From positions 62,001 through 126,000 of the forward strand of contig JAVHLM010000013.1 of NCBI GenBank assembly GCA_031082125.1: a stretch of 64,000 nt of DNA, given 5' to 3'. Below the pieces are notes generated by a model, which was given only the letters and a program-made list of their open reading frames with translations, was not told the origin of the DNA and searched no databases. This stretch comes from Candidatus Eremiobacterota bacterium. Its GTDB lineage: Bacteria > Vulcanimicrobiota > CADAWZ01 > Ess09-12. Below, piece after piece: positions 19,781 through 31,706 of the stretch. A program made the position numbers and the translations under genes. Positions within the stretch are counted from its first letter, which is position 1. Every line of letters begins with the position of its first letter.

Positions 19781-20176
19781 TTAGCTGGTGTGAGCTTTTC
19801 CCTGAACCGGTATCCAACGAATCAGGCCCACCATGTATTCAGGGTAAGCCCTCAGAAAGACAATTGCGAGGACAAACATCAGTATGGGACCGATGATCCA
19901 GTTCTGCACCAGGGAGAGTGACAGGACCTTCACGTCGCGGAATACTTTCCCCATCTCTTCATACTTCACCTTGGCCAGGGGCGGATACATCATCAGGATG
20001 AGGCCGATGGCGATGGAAGTGGTTCCCACCTGGAATGCCGAGAGCACCTTGTTTACCCCGGGGAAAAGAAACCCGGCGCCTACGCCCACGAACATTGCCA
20101 GAAAAATCCAGAGGGTGAGATAGGTGTAGAGGAACGAGAGTTTTTTCTTTACTTTGCCGGCATCAGCTGCTGTCAT
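19781..20176 (-). pseudogene. Truncated duplicate of the acr3 arsenite exporter
   Basis: The 131-residue frame matches the first ~120 residues of the intact ACR3 at 30609-31706 almost residue for residue (for example [20 protein letters not shown] in both). The DNA is also nearly identical over about 320 bases. It lacks two codons (TTSIAIG against TTSIPIAIG) and ends in an unrelated tail, [15 protein letters not shown]. Over half of the membrane helices, including the thiolate-bearing ones, are gone, so arsenite export is not expected. Its own N-terminus ([12 protein letters not shown]) differs from the intact copy, so this is a decayed paralog rather than a simple copy. Confidence 0.85.
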
Positions 20177-20222: not shown

Positions 20223-20630
20223 TTATTTATGCAATTGCCCGGTGTGGTAGCCTCTTTTGCTGTTTTGCATCCTGCACAATGGATCCAGCCCCTGTGCAAT
20301 GATGCACTTCAGTCTATTGTCGTCGTTTTCAAGCTCTTTCGACTGCGCCAGTGACTCTTTAAGCCATTTAAGCAGGGATGGCGGGAAGCAGTCCGAAAGC
20401 CTGTAATATACCCAGCGGCTGTCCTTTCTGCTCTTTACCAGGTGAGCATTCTGGAGGACACTCATGTGGCGGGATACGGTGGCCGGGGCGAGTTTAAGCA
20501 TCTCTGTAATCTGGCAGACACAGAGCTCATCTCTCTTTGTCAGGGCAATAAGCACCCTTAACCGGTTCCCATCTGCCAGGGCTTTGGTGACGGCCAGTGT
20601 TTTCTCCATGGATTCCGCCTTTGTTTGCAT
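20223..20630 (-). CDS. arsR: ArsR-family metalloregulator
   Basis: A winged-helix repressor that leaves DNA when arsenite or antimonite binds. The DNA-binding region contains ELCVCQITEMLKLAPATVSRHMSVLQNAHLV, with the classical C-x-C of the ELCVCDL metalloid site directly ahead of the recognition helix. Further Cys residues near the C-terminus (CIIAQ, PLCRM) may add ligands. The start is 20630 or the internal ATG at 20609. A palindromic TAATTA pair lies eight bases upstream and is a candidate operator. It heads the unit acr3 fragment, selenopeptide, thioredoxin-fold lipoprotein and FtsX/LolD transporter. Confidence 0.9.
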   Translation of the reverse strand: MQTKAESMEKTLAVTKALADGNRLRVLIALTKRDELCVCQITEMLKLAPATVSRHMSVLQNAHLVKSRKDSRWVYYRLSDCFPPSLLKWLKESLAQSKELENDDNRLKCIIAQGLDPLCRMQNSKRGYHTGQLHK

Positions 20631-23790: not shown

Positions 23791-24210
23791 CTATCCAGGA
23801 AGCGATTCCGGGAGGCTTTCCACGTAGGCTCTTATCTCGTCGCGCACCTCGCGGAAAACCTTGAGCCGATCCTCATGAGAGCCTTCAGCCTTCGCGGGAT
23901 CCCTGAAACCATGGTGTAATACTTTCACCTGCGCGGGGAAGAAAGGGCACGAGGCCCTGGCATCGTCACAGAGTGTGACCACATAATCTACTTTGACGCC
24001 CTCTTTCAGGAGCTCGAGAGAGGTCTTTGAACGCTGGCCGCTTATGTCAATCCCCGCCTCCTTCATCACCTCGACGGTGAGGGGATTGATGCCGTGAGCC
24101 TCGATGCCTGCAGAATAAGGCTCGAGGATACCGCCTTTCAGGTGCCTTGTCCAGGCTTCGGCCATCTGGCTCCGCGCCGAGTTCCCGGTGCAAAGATAGA
24201 GTATTTTCAT
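23791..24210 (-). CDS. arsC: Arsenate reductase, low-molecular-weight phosphatase (thioredoxin) type
   Basis: Reduces arsenate to arsenite for export, using a cascade of three cysteines. The N-terminal P-loop is ILYLCTGNSARSQMAE; the nucleophilic Cys is residue 7. The second and third catalytic Cys are in VVTLCDDARASCPFFP. The usual CTGNSCRSQ has Ala at the non-essential position here. The pattern HHGFRDPAKAEGS is also typical. ATG 24210 follows GAGGAGG; a longer frame to 24225 adds five residues. It lies 11 bases after the Sec-ArsM gene and just before the CopZ-like gene. The enzyme would feed arsenite to ACR3 or ArsM. Confidence 0.93.
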   Translation of the reverse strand: MKILYLCTGNSARSQMAEAWTRHLKGGILEPYSAGIEAHGINPLTVEVMKEAGIDISGQRSKTSLELLKEGVKVDYVVTLCDDARASCPFFPAQVKVLHHGFRDPAKAEGSHEDRLKVFREVRDEIRAYVESLPESLPG

Positions 24211-24221
24211 CGCATTCCTCC

Positions 24222-25055
24222 TCATTTTTCCGGCTTGTATGCACGGACCTTGATGCTCACTATGGAGTCGGCAGCCTTCCTTATCTCATCCATGGGGATC
24301 TTTGCATCTTTAATAATTGCCTGCACCGTGGGATCACTGGCCATGTAGTCGAGGGGGAATACGCACTCTTCAAGCACCGCCACCTCGATGAATCCAGCAT
24401 CTCTGATGGCGGCGAGATAAGCCTCCTTCAATGAGGCTCCCGCAATGCAGCCGATATAGGCGTCCACTGATTTCCTTATGCTTTCGGGGAGCTCTCTCAG
24501 GAGCACGATATCAGAGATCATGAGTCTCCCGCCCGGTCTGAGAACCCTGTGAGTCTCGCGGAACACCTGTGTCTTGTCTGGCGAGAGGTTTACCACGCAG
24601 TTTGAGATCACCACATCAACGAAGTTATCGGCAACGGGGAGGTGCTCGATCTCTCCCAGCCTGAACTCTATGTTACCCAGCCCCGATGCCTTGGAATTTT
24701 TCCGGGCATTTTCCACCATCTCGGGCGTCATATCGACGCCGATGACTTTTCCTGTGCCGCCGACCTTCTTCGCCGCGAGAAAACAGTCAATCCCCGCTCC
24801 GGCACCGAGGTCAAGTACATATTCTCCTTCCGCGAGAGAGGCGAGGGCAACGGGATTTCCGCATCCGAGCCCGAGGTTGGCCCCCTCCGGAAGGGAGGAC
24901 AGCTCTTCACTGCTGTACCCTATATTTTTGCTCAGGTCTTCCGCCAGTGTGCTGGTCCCGCAGCACGATGACTTCGGCCCTCAGCAGCTTCCAGAATCCT
25001 GCGCGATGGCCCCGTATCCTTCCCGTACTGCTTTTCTGATGTCTTCCTGGTCCAT
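24222..25055 (-). CDS. arsM: Selenocysteine-containing arsenite methyltransferase
   Basis: Transfers methyl groups from S-adenosylmethionine to arsenite. ATG 25055 follows AGGAGGACATC. In-frame UGA at 24983-24981 (codon 25) falls in QDSGSC-U-GPKSSCCG, the Cys-rich N-terminal segment of ArsM; the island's other ArsM has GGSCGCGCSC there. The core is intact: GLGCGNP, the SAM site VLDLGAGAGIDCFLAA, VISNCVVNLSPDK, YIGCIAGAS, so all three arsenite-binding Cys are present. A SECIS-like hairpin has its loop 20 nt after the UGA. A conventional call would start at an internal ATG (24731) and lose the SAM-binding motif, so read-through explains the gene better than decay. Confidence 0.85.
24949..24966 (-). 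promoter_or_regulatory. Candidate SECIS hairpin of the Sec-ArsM gene
   Basis: GTGCTG-CGGGAC-CAGCAC on the minus strand: a perfect 6-bp stem and a 6-nt loop with G at position 2, starting 20 nt after the UGA. Confidence 0.6.
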
Positions 25056-25127: not shown

Positions 25128-25472
25128 TTACCTCTTCTCCCGGTCTGCCGGCTTACCCTTATGGAGGCCGGTGGAGTCTTCAGCAAGCCGGAGGGTGAAC
25201 CTGCCGTAGCCTTCAATGCGCATGAGAAGCTCTCCCTTTGCCATGTCATAGGTATTCCATATCTCTTTGTGGATATAAAATTTAAGCTCCCCTGAAGAGT
25301 ACTCTTCAAAGTCGCCAGGATTTTCCGGTTTTCCCATCAGACCTGATGGCGCCTTGAATATCTGTCATCACCCGAGGGTCACATAGCGCTCCGTGATGTT
25401 CATTATCCCGCCATGCTCCTGCATATACTCCTCAAGCCAGAGCGAGTCAAAGGTGAGCGATTTGTCTGGCAT
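25128..25472 (-). CDS. CC/Se-motif family protein with two adjacent selenocysteines
   Basis: ATG 25472 follows a strong AAAGGAGG. Translation through two consecutive UGA codons (25370-25365) gives 114 residues: WLEEYMQEHGGIMNITERYVTLG-U-U-QIFKAPSG, then GKPENPGDFEEY, KFYIHKEIW, and ELLMRIEGYGRFTLRLAE. From memory, this matches the small HesB-like family that NCBI calls 'CC/Se motif family (seleno)protein', where the site is Cys-Cys or contains Sec. Residues before and after the UGAs form one homologous domain in one frame, and the second half alone has no good ribosome site. The hairpin beyond the UGAs contains CAGGTCTG, the apical sequence of the E. coli fdhF SECIS. The function of the family is unknown; a diselenide redox site is an inference. 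Confidence 0.82.
25334..25349 (-). promoter_or_regulatory. Candidate SECIS hairpin of the CC/Se-motif gene
   Basis: CCATCA-GGTC-TGATGG on the minus strand: a perfect 6-bp stem and a GGUC loop starting 21 nt after the second UGA. The apex CAGGUCUG equals that of the E. coli fdhF SECIS bound by SelB (from memory). Confidence 0.7.
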
Positions 25473-25518
25473 TGTTGCACCTCCTTTGTCGGATAGGCCC
25501 TTTTCGCGATATTCCAGC

Positions 25519-25576: not shown

Positions 25577-26269
25577 TCAGAATAATCCCCCGATATGCTT
25601 GAGGGAGAGGTAGATGCCTGCCAGAATGAAGACGCCCCCCGTGATGCGCCGCGCCCACCCCTCGATTTTTGCCAGGCTGTTGAAAGCTTTCCCTACGGAC
25701 TGTGCGGAAAAAGCGATAAGAAAGGCAAAGCCAATGACGGGCAGGGCTGTCCCCAGGCCGTAAAGTGCGGGGTACAGCACCTTGGAGGCCGCGCCGAGGC
25801 AGAGGGGGATGAGGCTTCCGAAGTAGAGGGCCGCCGAAACGGGGCAGAAGGTAAGGGCAAAGACGATGCCCAGCAGCGCCGCTCCCCAGATGCCGCTTTT
25901 TTCCACTTTCTCCTTCAGGGAATCGCTTATGCCACGTCCCTTGAACATGCTGAGATTGATCACCTCGAGAAGCACGAGCCCTACGAGCACGAGGAGGGGG
26001 CCTGTCACCTTGTTCATCCATTCCTGCAGAAACATTGAGACTTCAGGTATGGACAGCAGGCTTGAGACGATGAACATGGTGAGGAGCACGTAAGTAAAAG
26101 CCCTTCCCAGTGTATAGAAGAGCCCCGCGAGAATGACATTCCTCGTGCTGCCTACGTTCTTGCCGATAAAGGAGATGGCGACGATGTTGGCGGCGAGCGG
26201 GCAGGGGCTTATGGACGTCAGAATCCCCAGCCAGAGGGCCGAGAGCACTCCTGCTGCGCCGGATTCCAT
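25577..26269 (-). CDS. arsG: ArsG-family organoarsenical efflux permease (CcdA/DsbD-like)
   Basis: A polytopic membrane protein with six or more hydrophobic segments. It has the paired-Cys signature of the CcdA/DsbD superfamily: LTSISPCPLAANIVAISFIG at the start and ALTFCPVSAALYFGSLIPL in the second half. ArsG proteins of Shewanella-type arsEFG operons export aromatic arsenicals after ArsE/ArsF reduce the nitro group. Here the gene directly follows arsE- and arsF-like genes, which supports the assignment. ATG 26269 follows GGGAGGCTCGTG; GTG 26272 is an alternative. The arsF stop overlaps it. Confidence 0.82.
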   Translation of the reverse strand: MESGAAGVLSALWLGILTSISPCPLAANIVAISFIGKNVGSTRNVILAGLFYTLGRAFTYVLLTMFIVSSLLSIPEVSMFLQEWMNKVTGPLLVLVGLVLLEVINLSMFKGRGISDSLKEKVEKSGIWGAALLGIVFALTFCPVSAALYFGSLIPLCLGAASKVLYPALYGLGTALPVIGFAFLIAFSAQSVGKAFNSLAKIEGWARRITGGVFILAGIYLSLKHIGGLF

Positions 26270-26706
26270 CACGAGCCTCCCTTGAAGGCTTTAATCTCAT
26301 TTTCAATATAGGCGCTGAATTTCGCCTTGTCACTGTGGAGATTCCAGATCTTATCGAGATTCTTCCAGCGCGTCTGCGCCCCGTTTTTCGTCTCCACCAG
26401 CACGACCTGCTTGGTGAAAATCTTGTATTCCTTGATGAAATGCTTGTTGGCGGGCTGGTCTACATTCACCATCTGCCAGGTGATGAGCCCCTTTTTCATG
26501 GCATCGGCGAATTTTGAAGTGAGCGTCTCGCTTGTATAGGCTTCAAGCTTCTTGCATGTCGGGCAGCGGTAATTGTTGTAGAAGTAATAGACAATAATCT
26601 TTGAATTGGAAGGGGCGACGCTCTTTGAGGGCTTCTGGGCCCATGCCGCGGCGGTGATGGATAAGAGAAGTGATACTGAAAGAATGAGGATCAACAATTT
26701 TTTCAT
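26269..26706 (-). CDS. arsF: ArsF-family protein, exported thioredoxin-fold
   Basis: A signal peptide (KKLLILILSVSLLLSITAAAWA) leads into a thioredoxin-like domain with IIVYYFYNNYRCPTCKKLEAYT, a redox CPTC motif near residue 50, then WQMVNVDQPANKHFIKEYKI and QVVLVETKNG. ArsF in arsEFG operons is described as a subunit for reduction of nitro-aromatic arsenicals; the CxxC and neighbours fit that family. It may pass electrons through the CcdA-like ArsG. Its stop codon overlaps the arsG start. The exact substrate cannot be told from sequence. Confidence 0.8.
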   Translation of the reverse strand: MKKLLILILSVSLLLSITAAAWAQKPSKSVAPSNSKIIVYYFYNNYRCPTCKKLEAYTSETLTSKFADAMKKGLITWQMVNVDQPANKHFIKEYKIFTKQVVLVETKNGAQTRWKNLDKIWNLHSDKAKFSAYIENEIKAFKGGS

Positions 26707-26766: not shown

Positions 26767-27003
26767 TCAGGCTGAGAGGATCTTCTTTATCTCTTCAGCG
26801 TCAGGGATCCTTCCCGCGACCTTCACGATGCCGTCCACGACAAGTGCAGGCGTGGCAAGGATATTATATCCAAGGATCCTGCCCATGTCCTTCACTTTCT
26901 CAATCTCACACTCGATGCCGAGGCTTGTCGCAATCTGCTTTGTTTCTTCATAGAGCTTCGTGCAGTTGGGGCATCCCGGGCCCAGAACCTCGATCTTTTT
27001 CAT
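26767..27003 (-). CDS. arsE: ArsE-like small redox-active disulfide protein (TM0996 family)
   Basis: A 78-residue cytoplasmic thioredoxin-like protein: MKKIEVLGPGCPNCTKLYEE with a CPNC redox site near residue 11, then IEKVKDMGRILGYNILATPALVVDG with the conserved cis-Pro. It belongs to the TM0996/MJ0307 family, which includes ArsE. ATG 27003 follows AAAGGAG; an upstream in-frame ATG adds six residues. Position between arsM and arsF supports a role as electron carrier for arsenical reduction, but a general thiol carrier function is possible. Confidence 0.8.
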   Translation of the reverse strand: MKKIEVLGPGCPNCTKLYEETKQIATSLGIECEIEKVKDMGRILGYNILATPALVVDGIVKVAGRIPDAEEIKKILSA

Positions 27004-27017
27004 TGTTTTTTCTCCTT

Positions 27018-27806
27018 TCAATTCTTTGGTTTGTTTGCGGTCACCATAATGCTCCGCGCAGAGTCGCAGGCTTTCTGAGCCTCCGCCTGCGGGACACCGG
27101 TGCGCTCCACGGCCTCGTAAGGCAGAGGCGACTCATTGACCAGCTTTATTGACGTAAAACCGGCTTTCTCAACAAGCTTCATATACTCGTCCCTGAGAAG
27201 GGCGCCGGCAATGCAGCCTATATAGAGCGTGACCGACTCCCTCACCTGGGGTGAAAGATCTTCCACGAGCACAATGTCGCTCACATAAAGGGCCCCGCCC
27301 GGCTTGAGCACCCGGTATGCCTCGCGGAACACCCGCTCCATGTCCGGCGAAAGGTTGATCACGCAGTTTGAGATAAGCTTGTCGGCGTAATTGTCTGCCA
27401 CGGGGAGGTTTTCAATCTCGCCGAGGCGGAACTCCACGTTGCCATACCCTCCACGGCGGGCATTTTCCCGTGCGCGCTCAAGCATCTGCGCCGTCATATC
27501 GACGCCGATCACCCTGCCTTTCGGTCCTGTTTTGCGGGCTGCAAGGAAGCAGTCAAAGCCTGCACCCGAGCCCAGGTCGATGATGACCTCGCCTTCCTTT
27601 ATGGCGGCGTGAGCCGTAGGATTGCCGCATCCCAGGCCCAGGTTTGCGCCTTCGGGCACGGCCTCCATTTCATCCCTGGAGTAGCCTATCTTTTCCCCGA
27701 TCTCCCCCGTGGAGGTGCAGCTGCACCCGCAGCCACAGGAGCCGCCGCTCTCCGCAATCTTTCCGTATTCCTCACGCACCGTCTGCCTGATTTTTTCTTC
27801 CTTCAT
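27018..27806 (-). CDS. arsM: Arsenite S-adenosylmethyltransferase
   Basis: Methylates arsenite with S-adenosylmethionine. The Cys-rich head ESGGSCGCGCSC precedes IGEKIGYSRDEM, then GLGCGNPTAHA, the SAM motif VIIDLGSGAGFDCFLAA, GVDMTAQM, LISNCVINLSPDM and YIGCIAGAL. All arsenite-binding Cys seen in characterised ArsM are present. This copy has no UGA, unlike its paralog at 24222, and so serves as an internal control. AAGAGGTGTGGTAAT precedes the ATG. It lies between the DGC-GcvH gene and arsE in one transcription unit. Confidence 0.93.
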   Translation of the reverse strand: MKEEKIRQTVREEYGKIAESGGSCGCGCSCTSTGEIGEKIGYSRDEMEAVPEGANLGLGCGNPTAHAAIKEGEVIIDLGSGAGFDCFLAARKTGPKGRVIGVDMTAQMLERARENARRGGYGNVEFRLGEIENLPVADNYADKLISNCVINLSPDMERVFREAYRVLKPGGALYVSDIVLVEDLSPQVRESVTLYIGCIAGALLRDEYMKLVEKAGFTSIKLVNESPLPYEAVERTGVPQAEAQKACDSARSIMVTANKPKN

Positions 27807-27887: not shown

Positions 27888-28772
27888 CTAGTGTCGGCCT
27901 GCAATTTCCCTCTGCGCTTTATCTATCATATTCTTGAAATAGGCTTCGCTTTCCAGCAGGAGCTCCCGGTCCTCTTCAAGCTGAGTGAGGCGCAGCTCAG
28001 CGATCCATCCCCGCCGGTAAGGGTCTTCGTTAAGAAGCTCAGGATGCTCCTTCAATGCCTCATTGATGCGCACGACAACTCCTGAGACCGGCGAGATGAC
28101 CTGCAGCACGGACTTGCTCGATTCAAAGTCGCCGGCCTCGTCGAACTGGGAGATTTCCTTCCCGGGATCGGGATGGCCCACGTACATGATATCGCCGGCC
28201 CTGGTCTGGAGATAATCACTGATGCCTATGAGGGCTGTCGAGCCTCTCACGAAAGCCCAGCAATCGTTCTCATTGAAGAGGTATCCCTCTTTCGGGACTT
28301 TCAGCACGAACTTATCGACCATGGCCTCTAAGAAGTCGAGCTCCCGGCGGTTCCAGTCTTCAATACCGGCCTCGGTAGCTTTTTCGGATTTTTTCTCAGA
28401 GCAGTGACTCATAATGAGCCGTGATATTTCACCTGCCACCTTCAGGCCCCCGGGGCCGGGCTCAAGAGAAGCCTCGGGCCTGCTGCCGGTGCTTTTCACC
28501 ACATCAGGGACATAGAGCTTCAATGCAATGCCTGCCTGAAGAGCCGCCGCCGTTTTTGTCGCGCACCTTGTGCCGCAGCCGTCTATCACGATCAGCTTTT
28601 TCTTTTCGGCACTCTCCTTGTACCGGCCGGGGTCCTGCGAGCATACCATGGGGCAGAGAAGCTCCAGCTCCGGCAGGGCAGTACAGGCATTGAGTGCCGC
28701 CGCTCTTGTGATCTGCCCGAGAGACTTGTCCAAGCCGTTGCAGGGGAGAAGGGCAAACTCGGATCCGCTCAT
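27888..28772 (-). CDS. DGC-domain protein fused to a GcvH-like lipoyl domain
   Basis: Residues 1-130 form a DGC domain (Pfam 'putative zinc-binding'): a leading LLPCNGLDKSLGQITRAAAL and the motif IVIDGCGTRCATKTAA. Residues about 165-260 resemble glycine-cleavage H protein: YLFNENDCWAFVRGSTALIGIS, then GDFESSKSVLQVISPVSGVV with a Lys where lipoate is attached, then EALKEHPELLNEDPYRRGWIAEL. Lipoyl carriers shuttle electrons or acyl-type adducts; fusion to DGC is unusual. It overlaps the ferredoxin gene by four bases. A redox or metalloid-carrier role is inferred; glycine cleavage is unlikely since no GcvP or GcvT is nearby. Confidence 0.82.
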   Translation of the reverse strand: MSGSEFALLPCNGLDKSLGQITRAAALNACTALPELELLCPMVCSQDPGRYKESAEKKKLIVIDGCGTRCATKTAAALQAGIALKLYVPDVVKSTGSRPEASLEPGPGGLKVAGEISRLIMSHCSEKKSEKATEAGIEDWNRRELDFLEAMVDKFVLKVPKEGYLFNENDCWAFVRGSTALIGISDYLQTRAGDIMYVGHPDPGKEISQFDEAGDFESSKSVLQVISPVSGVVVRINEALKEHPELLNEDPYRRGWIAELRLTQLEEDRELLLESEAYFKNMIDKAQREIAGRH

Positions 28773-29056
28773 TTCGCTTCCTCCTCCTTGCGTATTTGTT
28801 TAATGAGTGCCGTTGTCTCCTGCTTATTGGGGAATGAGAGGGCGTCGGGCTCGCAGGTCTTTGCGCAGGCACGGCAGAACACGACGCAGTTCTCTTTGTT
28901 TTTCACCACGAGCTTCCTCTCACCCTCGTTGCGCTCAAAGACCTTGTGGGGGCAGAACTTATCGCACTCCATGCAGAAATTGCATTTTGTATAGTCTATA
29001 ACGGGATACCAGGGAATCCTCTCCCTCGGCACTCCCATGAAGGTGCTTTCAGACAT
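28769..29056 (-). CDS. Ferredoxin with two [4Fe-4S] sites
   Basis: About 95 residues. The Cys patterns YTKCNFCMECDKFCPHKVF and CVVFCRACAKTCEPDAL are 4Fe-4S-type motifs, the second slightly atypical. The chosen start MSESTFMGVPRE at 29056 overlaps the stop of the HdrA-like gene by eight bases; a longer frame to 29095 lies inside that gene. It probably passes electrons between the HdrA-like and DGC-lipoyl proteins encoded on either side. Confidence 0.88.
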   Translation of the reverse strand: MSESTFMGVPRERIPWYPVIDYTKCNFCMECDKFCPHKVFERNEGERKLVVKNKENCVVFCRACAKTCEPDALSFPNKQETTALIKQIRKEEEAK

Positions 29057-29441
29057 CTTTCGCCTCCATATCGGCAAGCTTTTTCTCCACCGCATTAAAG
29101 GCCTGGTCGGTAGTCATATCCCTCACGTCGAGAGGCGCCAGGTGTTTTTTCACATCGAGCCCCATTTCGCTGAAGGCATCCCTGAAAAGCTTGTACTGCA
29201 TCGAGGGAGCGCATCCGCCCACCACATAGGTCCTGCCGGGCTGGATAAAGTCTTTCCAGAAACGGTCGCCGTCCTCTTCGCAGAGCTGGGGATGGATGAA
29301 GGCATACTCGACGGGAAGCTCCACCCGGACCCTGTTAATAAAATCCCACATATCCATTTTAGAGAAACCGGGGCATTTACCGGTGCAGACACACATGATG
29401 AATCCTGGTTTTTTGTCTTCCATAACATCCGGGTCTTTCAT
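29049..29441 (-). CDS. HdrA-like iron-sulfur protein (short)
   Basis: A 130-residue protein similar to the N-terminal domain of heterodisulfide reductase subunit A: FIMCVCTGKCPGFSKMD (Cys cluster ligands), HPQLCEEDGDRFWKDF, and VVGGCAPSMQYKLFRDAF, which matches the HdrA motif 'VVAACSPRTHEP'. It lacks the FAD domain of HdrA, so it is a stand-alone cluster-binding module. It shares one base with the DGC gene upstream and overlaps the ferredoxin gene downstream, so tight co-translation is likely. Function in arsenic handling is inferred only from context. Confidence 0.78.
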   Translation of the reverse strand: MKDPDVMEDKKPGFIMCVCTGKCPGFSKMDMWDFINRVRVELPVEYAFIHPQLCEEDGDRFWKDFIQPGRTYVVGGCAPSMQYKLFRDAFSEMGLDVKKHLAPLDVRDMTTDQAFNAVEKKLADMEAKDV

Positions 29442-30136
29442 TATTTTTTCCGTCCTTTCATATATTCCCGCAGGAGCGCCTCTCCAAGGGAAGCACTGCT
29501 TATTGCTTCAGGAATGGCGTTATAGATCCCTGCCTGTCGCGCGAGCTCCTGTCCCCTCTCTCCGTCAGAGAGTTCTCCATTTTTTGACACCAGCGAGAAT
29601 ATGCCGTCGAGAGCCACAAGCTCGAGAGTCTTTCCCTGAACCTTCACTGAAACGGTGCGGGGGCCTGAGGAACTGCAGGAGCATTCGGGGAGGGGAGCAC
29701 CGCCTGCTGTTCCTGCGCGGCCTTCCTGCGCGGCCTTTGCCAGCACGAGATCCACTTTGCGGGCTATCTCCAGGGCCACCTTTTCGGCAAGCTCCCAGTC
29801 CTTTTCCGTGAAATCCCTTCTCGAAGCAGGAGCTTTTTCTCCAAGTTTTTCAAGAAGCTCATCGATAACCACCACGTCATCGACCTTGCCGCTGTATTTT
29901 TCGGTGCCTTGCTGGGCGCATCGCTTACCGCAGCCATCGACGGCGATGGTGGGATAGCGCTCGACAAAGGCGCGCTCTCCCCCGTCGCCGGCAAGGAAGA
30001 GAGGCAGGCAGATGGTGACAGTCTGCAGTGGCCTGAGCTTTTCCAGCACGATGCGGACAGCGGCCCGGGAGAGCGTTCCCTCGGCGATCTCTTCACCGCT
30101 GCAGGAGATAAGCCCTACTTTCACGTCATTTCCCAT
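29441..30136 (-). CDS. DGC-domain putative zinc-binding protein
   Basis: The 231-residue protein carries a DGC domain: VGLISCSGEEIAEGTLSRAAV at the start and TIAVDGCGKRCAQQGTEKYS. Residues about 110-150 are helical, then a Cys patch PECSCSSSGP precedes a short beta-rich tail (TVSVKVQGKTLELVALDGIF). The conserved Cys residues could bind zinc or a metalloid. It is one of three DGC proteins in a row, with 11-base overlap to the first. No biochemical function is known to me for the family. Confidence 0.8.
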   Translation of the reverse strand: MGNDVKVGLISCSGEEIAEGTLSRAAVRIVLEKLRPLQTVTICLPLFLAGDGGERAFVERYPTIAVDGCGKRCAQQGTEKYSGKVDDVVVIDELLEKLGEKAPASRRDFTEKDWELAEKVALEIARKVDLVLAKAAQEGRAGTAGGAPLPECSCSSSGPRTVSVKVQGKTLELVALDGIFSLVSKNGELSDGERGQELARQAGIYNAIPEAISSASLGEALLREYMKGRKK

Positions 30137-30548
30137 GGTCCTTCCCCTCCTCTCCCAGGATCCGCTCTATCTCTTTTTCAACTTTGTCGGCAAGAGCCTC
30201 CACAAGCTTTTCTCCGCCCTCGCCGATGTGGAGCACCGATTCCGGTTTATATCCCCGGTGCTCCTTGAGGATATCCATCACTCGGAGCTTGCTTTTCACG
30301 AGGCCTCCCGCGAGGGTGATATTCTTGCGGGCACATTCCTTGGGGCACCCGTCAAGGGCGATGCAGGGGTTCTCCCTTACCAGGCGCACCGCCTCATCAT
30401 CGCCCGATACCAGAAGGGCAAGGCAGGTGGTGGTGCTTGTTTCCTTACAGCGTTTTTCGACAATATCATAGGTCGCCTGGCGGCCTACGGTGCCCAGGGG
30501 CTTGCCGATGCCGCTGCAGGGGATGACCACTACTCTGGGCATATTCAT
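30126..30548 (-). CDS. DGC-domain putative zinc-binding protein (short)
   Basis: A 140-residue, single-domain member of the DGC family: VVVIPCSGIGKPLGTVGRQATY and CIALDGCPKECARKNITLAGG. The C-terminus is a helix rich in Glu and Lys. It is the first gene after acr3 and overlaps the second DGC gene. The two starts ATG 30548 and 30542 are both possible. Confidence 0.82.
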   Translation of the reverse strand: MNMPRVVVIPCSGIGKPLGTVGRQATYDIVEKRCKETSTTTCLALLVSGDDEAVRLVRENPCIALDGCPKECARKNITLAGGLVKSKLRVMDILKEHRGYKPESVLHIGEGGEKLVEALADKVEKEIERILGEEGKDHGK

Positions 30549-30608: not shown

Positions 30609-31706
30609 CTATGATGAGCAGCAGGGCGTGACGGTCATGTCGTCATCTTCTCCGGCGAACCACTTCTTCCTGAACCAGAAGGCCACGTTCACCAGCGAAA
30701 TAAGTACGGGCACTTCCACGAGGGGGCCTATGACGGCGGCGAAGGCCTGACCTGAGTTGATGCCGAAGACTGCAATGGCCACGGCGATGGCAAGCTCGAA
30801 ATTATTGCTTGCCGCCGTGAACGAGAGTGTCGCAGTCCTGGTATAGCCGGCTTTGAGCTTGTATCCCATAAAGAAAGAGATAAAGAACATTATTACAAAG
30901 TAAATGCAGAGGGGCACCGCTATTCTCAGCACGTCAAGGGGGAGCTGCACGATATAGTTTCCCTTGAGAGAGAACATCACGACTATGGTGAAGAGCAGTG
31001 CTATCAGGGTGATGGGGCTTATCTTCGGGATGAACTCCTTCTCGTACCATTCCTTGCCCTTTGCCTTGATGAGGCTGAAGCGGGTAATCACCCCCGCGAT
31101 GAAGGGGATTCCAAGGTAGATGAAGACAGACTGGGCGATCTGACCGATAGAGATGTTGACGACAGCGCCTTTCAGGCCCACAAGCGGGGGGAGTATGGTG
31201 ATGAAAAACCATGCATAGACCGAGAAGAAGAGAAGCTGGAACACTGAGTTGAAGGCTACGAGCCCGGCGCAGTACTCGGTGTTGCCTTCGGCAAGCTCGT
31301 TCCACACGATGACCATGGCGATGCAGCGGGCAAGGCCGATAAGAATGAGTCCTACCATATACTCGGGATAGGGGCGGAGAAAAACAATGGCCAGGACGAA
31401 CATCAGTATGGGACCGATGATCCAGTTCTGCACCAGGGAGAGTGACAGGACCTTCACGTCGCGGAATACTTTCCCCATCTCTTCATACTTTACCTTGGCC
31501 AGGGGCGGGTACATCATCAGGATGAGGCCGATGGCGATGGGTATGGAAGTGGTGCCCACCTGGAATGCCGTGAGCACCTTGTTCACTCCGGGGAAGAGGT
31601 ACCCTGCACCTACGCCGATGAACATGGCAAGAAATATCCAGAGAGTGAGATAGGTGTCCAGGAATGAAAGCTTCTTCTTCGCAGGACTGGTGCAGCATTG
31701 TGCCAT
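30609..31706 (-). CDS. acr3: ACR3-family arsenite efflux permease
   Basis: An inner-membrane arsenite exporter of about ten helices, 365 residues, normal for ACR3. Helices include [55 protein letters not shown] and [21 protein letters not shown]. The thiolate of LARCIAMV, conserved and needed in characterised ACR3 proteins, is present. The N-terminus has a Cys pair (MAQCCTSP) and the C-terminus CCSS. AGGAGGCGAATGT precedes ATG 31706. It lies downstream of arsR with an inverted repeat between them. A truncated relative lies at 19781. Confidence 0.95.

Follow-up and report, generated by a model that had tools for sequence, protein, structure and literature searches.

A small gene in the 64,000-nucleotide stretch of Candidatus Eremiobacterota DNA that we analyzed (hereafter the window) carries two adjacent in-frame UGA codons; the reading frame beyond them and a hairpin behind them are conserved, and the genome encodes the full selenocysteine machinery. 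As the UGA-UGA pair is kept among relatives, the frame behind it is conserved, the hairpin covaries and the sel genes are present, two consecutive selenocysteines are the best reading of these codons. We have high confidence that both UGAs are decoded as selenocysteine by way of a single SECIS element, which would result in a 114-residue protein with Sec35-Sec36. Since relatives in several bacterial groups retain the double UGA, this looks like a real and so far undescribed family of twin-selenium proteins.

The gene is located on the minus strand, a fact absent from the preliminary description of this DNA, and extends from an ATG at position 25472 to a TAA ending at 25128 (25128..25472). All elements listed in that description were found on this strand: a strong ribosome site (Shine-Dalgarno sequence AAAGGAGG, 25480..25487), 34 residues, UGA-UGA and a further 78 residues, 114 in total; read on the plus strand, the region is nonsense. 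The tandem UGAs (25365..25370, minus strand) constitute codon 35 (25370-25368) and codon 36 (25367-25365), and translation with TGA as Sec gives MPDKSLTFDSLWLEEYMQEHGGIMNITERYVTLG-UU-QIFKAPSGLMGKPENPGDFEEY...REKR, 114 residues in length. Elsewhere in the window UGA acts as a stop, terminating 27 of the 44 long ORFs. Twin-UGA genes, about 100 codons long and interrupted by two in-frame stops, are lost in standard annotation. In a single sequence the pattern is not significant, because four of the 97 TGATGA hexamers on the two strands of the window are equally open (33 or more open codons on the 5' side and 60 or more on the 3' side) and because the statistics of the lone hairpin are weak: its 41-nt fold has an energy of -7.7 kcal/mol with a z-score of -0.45 against shuffles, and a stem of this length arises in 6% of synonymous-recoding trials. 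The observation gains its significance from the homologues, 16 of 17 of which share the UGA-UGA.

These 17 relatives were identified among about 1,900 genomes using queries with Cys at both sites or the NF041239 model, with stops read through, so that the searches were unbiased towards UGA. Sixteen carry UGA-UGA at the identical place and one (L102/L049) carries UGA-UGG, while no Cys-Cys counterpart of the clade occurs among the relatives found; the Sec-Sec pair predicted in the preliminary description is thereby supported by homologues, as it is by the conserved frame, the hairpin and the sel genes. By their inferred phylum names, the UGA-UGA relatives span Bacillota, Acidobacteriota and Chloroflexota. 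The L049 copy was found by an arsM-based scan and lies directly 3' of arsM; a two-sequence profile including it led to L103-L106 in the same phylum, all of which read G-UGA-UGA. Searching 398 genomes of the L047 phylum (Bacillota) with NF041239 returned a large canonical family, mostly with a single UGA, together with 11 divergent members with two UGAs, all 11 being UGA-UGA. One more UGA-UGA relative occurs in the phylum of L023, which, L023 being labelled Dehalococcoidia, we take to be Chloroflexota. One genome (G671) contains two twin-UGA paralogues (L145 and L150), one of them much diverged, both beside genes for the tungsten aldehyde:ferredoxin oxidoreductase (AOR). A search of 147 genomes from the phylum to which the window belongs returned no copy besides that of the window, and none came from 395 genomes of the phylum that includes the Syntrophaceae locus. 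The window protein alone as query retrieved no relative from genome contigs or viral contigs, a phage search gave no match, and among plasmids the only match was weak and unrelated (E 0.2), while a relative used as query matched none. With E-values at genome scale, not even the window copy is recovered by the NF041239 model.

Behind the UGA pair the transcript can form a SECIS-like hairpin, CCAUCA[GGUC]UGAUGG (25334..25349, minus strand), described earlier from the window alone. Its loop lies 21 nt past the second UGA and 24 nt past the first, and for this reason one element could serve both codons. In 13 gap-free sequences 98.9% of the positions are paired, three of the seven pairs are altered on both sides, and the covariation score is reached by no shuffle; slid controls, with partners shifted by 1-3 columns, are 30-46% paired. 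The loops are mostly GGUC or near variants at a distance of 21 nt (17 nt in L103, L106 and L102), and a three-base insertion in the L145 hairpin leaves the stem intact. The window hairpin falls within the published bSECIS model, which places the loop 16-37 nt from the UGA, with a G in the first two loop positions and an MFE <= -7.5 (PMC13188914). The stem overlaps the codons of a conserved P-S-G, the hairpins of some GC-rich copies fail to beat synonymous recoding, and those of L179, L102 and L106 are no better than recoded sequences. An Rfam search of the window returned no SECIS; RF00031 (SECIS_1), tried as a control, is a eukaryotic model without a match in any control genome and was set aside. 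We consider the conserved hairpin a SECIS candidate.

The window's genome was inspected for selA, selB, selC and selD, and all are present. In addition to selA, it encodes two copies of selB, both with the SelB winged-helix domain, a tRNA-Sec with anticodon TCA just upstream of a selB, and a selD with a UGA of its own in the customary position, G-U-ASKIGP. SelB with Sec-tRNA-Sec would bind the hairpin and deliver twice, as the ribosome reaches the first UGA and then the second. Two successive insertions directed by one SECIS should be inefficient, and this counts against Sec-Sec decoding. The two SelB-like factors (G000:C6:170366-172246 and G000:C8:16892-18754; L010 and L011), only the first of which adjoins selC, raise the question whether the second could have a bearing on the tandem UGA.

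The preliminary description had assigned the gene to the CC/Se-motif family (NF041239) and taken the family site to be Cys-Cys. Homology at the family's Cys/Sec site is confirmed: in an hhalign comparison with the canonical family the probability is 98.4% over about 84 columns, with U-U aligned on U-C, and canonical relatives have Sec or Cys at the first position and sometimes Cys at the second. Membership and the Cys-Cys site call for correction. With 27.1 bits the window protein stays under the family cut-off of 40 bits, below which L104 (35.7 bits) and L106 (31.1 bits) also fall, while L103 and L102 give no match, and in 26 NF041239 members (including L134) the site reads U-A in 18, U-C in four, U-G in three, C-G in one and U-U in none. 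In the phylogenetic tree the 18 genes of the twin-UGA clade, the window copy included, are split from the canonical members by a branch with 100/99 support. By sequence, the twin-UGA protein is thus a distant sister of NF041239 in a separate, well-supported clade, and as U-U is absent from the 26 canonical members and present in 17 of the 18 genes of the clade, the pair is the rule of the sister clade rather than the oddity of a single gene. The canonical family itself occurs in 92 of the 398 genomes searched in the L047 phylum, with a thioredoxin-like gene as frequent neighbor (L113-L142).

In order to place the clade structurally we relied on predicted models. For the window protein, AlphaFold2 gives a model (pLDDT 82.7) composed of a strand, a helix, four strands, a helix and two strands, for which IscA and SufA are the top PDB matches, at weak levels (E 0.014, TM about 0.4). 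The model of a canonical relative (pLDDT 92) matches SufA/IscA strongly in Foldseek (probability 1.00, E 1.4e-4, TM up to 0.65) and shares the order of elements with the window model, which has one extra helix. Canonical NF041239 proteins are thus predicted here with an IscA/SufA fold, on which the NCBI family name is silent. In a sequence alignment the Sec pair falls on Cys35 of E. coli IscA (the sequence used differs from PDB 1s98 in one residue). A Pfam search with the window protein returned no family, and its score for PF01521 stays below gathering; nine of 14 canonical members match PF01521 weakly, the best with an E-value of 0.0023, again below the gathering score. Sequence searches of the PDB gave nothing useful. 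With moderate confidence, the models point to a small protein of the IscA/HesB fold whose Sec pair occupies the position of IscA Cys35, a metal-ligand site, and the product would present two side-by-side selenols at the metal-binding corner of this fold. We regard Sec-Sec decoding and the IscA/HesB-like fold, taken jointly and leaving any arsenic role aside, as very probable.

The preliminary description likewise made no mention of the arsenic operon in which the gene resides, nor of the in-frame UGA in a neighboring arsM. All genes of this run lie on the minus strand, in the order acr3 (arsenite efflux transporter, 30609..31706), two genes for DGC-domain proteins (30126..30548 and 29441..30136), an unknown gene, a gene for a 4Fe-4S ferredoxin-like protein (28769..29095), one for a DGC domain fused to a GcvH-like domain (27888..28772), a second arsM in Cys form (27018..27806), arsE (MTH895-family thioredoxin-like protein, 26767..27021), arsF (26269..26706), arsG (aromatic arsenical efflux permease family, 25577..26272), the twin-UGA gene, the UGA-bearing arsM (24222..25055) and an arsC-like arsenate reductase of the thioredoxin type (23791..24225; 154 bits, cut-off 174). 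The product of the UGA-bearing arsM is an arsenite methyltransferase by its match to NF008823 (358.7 bits, cut-off 263). The UGA is codon 25 (24981..24983), where 57 of about 80 homologous regions have Cys, and a putative SECIS, GUGCUG[CGGGAC]CAGCAC (24949..24966), has its loop 20 nt past it. Two neighboring candidate selenoprotein genes, this arsM and the twin-UGA gene, are accordingly found in one arsenic operon. Elsewhere in the window, a truncated second acr3 (19781-20176), whose N-terminal part is near-identical to the complete gene, apparently is a broken duplicate; it adjoins an arsR-like gene (20223-20630).

Vicinal thiols and selenols are tight binders of As(III) and other soft metals, and metalloid binding by a diselenol therefore fits the arsenic loci. 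We tentatively propose that the vicinal diselenol might be a soft-metal or metalloid ligand or a very reactive redox pair. In the window, the protein would deal with As(III) or organoarsenicals together with ArsM and the efflux pumps; elsewhere among bacteria it would serve the tungsten AOR system, perhaps, speculatively, by handling metal, sulphur or electrons. Four of the 18 copies (window, L108, L112 and L181) are found among arsenic genes, the L181 locus having acr3, DGC, GcvH-like and arsE-like genes in common with the window, while 11 lie beside AOR genes and three (L143, L144 and L152) beside neither. That most relatives are tied to AOR rather than to arsenic counts against an arsenic role. 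At one locus (L111:4297-9429) the AOR gene that follows the twin-UGA gene is hit in two separate segments, residues 36-267 and residues 274-738, which lie about 3 kb from each other and enclose a ferredoxin-like match, indicating either a split gene or an insertion.

A Sec-Sec protein could equally assist AOR-type tungsten enzymes as their partner in redox reactions or cofactor assembly, in which case its copies at arsenic loci were recruited or are passengers. The adjoining AOR genes come from two phyla, seven Bacillota loci share the order ferredoxin, AOR, twin-UGA gene, FeFe-hydrogenase-like gene, and the IscA-like predicted fold would suit such a task; on the other hand, the four arsenic loci belong to different phyla and have no AOR nearby, and the window copy is flanked by arsG and arsM within a gene run that continues unbroken on one strand. 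We consider this partnership a serious contender, if somewhat short of an even chance. The same reserve applies to the complete proposal of a conserved Sec-Sec clade with an IscA-like fold, decoded through one SECIS, whose diselenol would be a ligand for As(III) or soft metals both in arsenic operons and together with tungsten oxidoreductases: it is plausible, though we would not yet bet on it.

The structural resemblance also suggests an A-type iron-sulphur carrier like IscA with Sec ligands, in keeping with the predicted fold, the weak PF01521 matches of the canonical members and the alignment of the Sec position with Cys35. The C-terminal CxC ligands of IscA (CGCG) are, however, absent from all UU members, and the clusters examined contain no iron-sulphur assembly genes save a NifU-like ORF, recognized by eye, upstream of the L152 copy, which makes this role unlikely.

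Whether the second UGA, too, is read as Sec can be judged from the 18 genes together. If only the first were Sec, the second would be a true stop or be read as Trp by a near-cognate tRNA, amounting to a leaky or regulatory stop; the TGG at the second codon of L102/L049 and the single SECIS available for two codons would be in line with this. All 18 members, however, show protein-level conservation of the frame past the second UGA: over the full length, the part after the UGAs included, the relatives are 26-44% identical to the window protein, and codon differences downstream of them (190, 146 and 381 at positions 1, 2 and 3) show a third-position excess, with 281 synonymous and 252 non-synonymous differences. 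An in-frame UGA followed by a conserved coding frame is what is looked for in a bacterial selenoprotein. The second codon is TGA in 17 of the 18 genes, and no other stop is found there, while the loop at 21 nt from it is well within the published range of 16-37 nt. As the TGG copy nests within the UU clade, sister to a UU copy (99/92), its TGG is probably a secondary loss. Decoding of the first UGA alone is consequently improbable, and Sec-Sec remains our reading. A decayed frame with two chance stops, for which the four equally open TGATGA sites and the non-significant lone hairpin might be cited, is already refuted by the homologues and has a negligible probability, given identical codons at the aligned place in 17 genes from several phyla, protein conservation on both sides of the UGAs and a covarying hairpin.

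As a compact bacterial system in which two UGAs are followed by a single SECIS, the gene would offer a direct test of SelB delivering twice in a row, and a natural vicinal diselenol, if formed, would be a chemically interesting motif for the binding of arsenic and mercury. No adjacent Sec-Sec motif appears in a 2026 inventory that covers 119 families of prokaryotic selenoproteins. Our literature search, which mostly did not extend to subscription papers and so leaves priority uncertain, found one report of consecutive Sec, the algal PDI_e selenoprotein (GUGUU motif), the first such case according to its authors (PMC7539508). It shares the consecutive Sec-Sec with the twin-UGA protein, but is a PDI of thioredoxin fold from a eukaryote, decoded through a eukaryotic SECIS, and has no relation to it in fold or decoding system. 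The neighboring arsM is an arsenite methyltransferase selenoprotein of the known kind (NF008823, UxxG), without adjacent Sec-Sec. The IscA/SufA/HesB carriers (PF01521), including the HesB-like selenoproteins (TIGR01911, UxGP), resemble the twin-UGA protein in predicted fold, element order and the Cys35 position; in contrast to them, it lacks the C-terminal Cys pair and a Pfam match and has two adjacent Sec instead of one. The NF041239 proteins of the Moorella thermoacetica type are likewise small, have Sec where the twin-UGA genes have their first UGA, and share a downstream G-x-P motif with the twin-UGA protein. Known members contain one Sec, given as CxxU (PMC13188914), followed by Ala, Cys or Gly and never by Sec in the 26 members compared, whereas the UU clade has a P-[SV]-G-L motif of its own.
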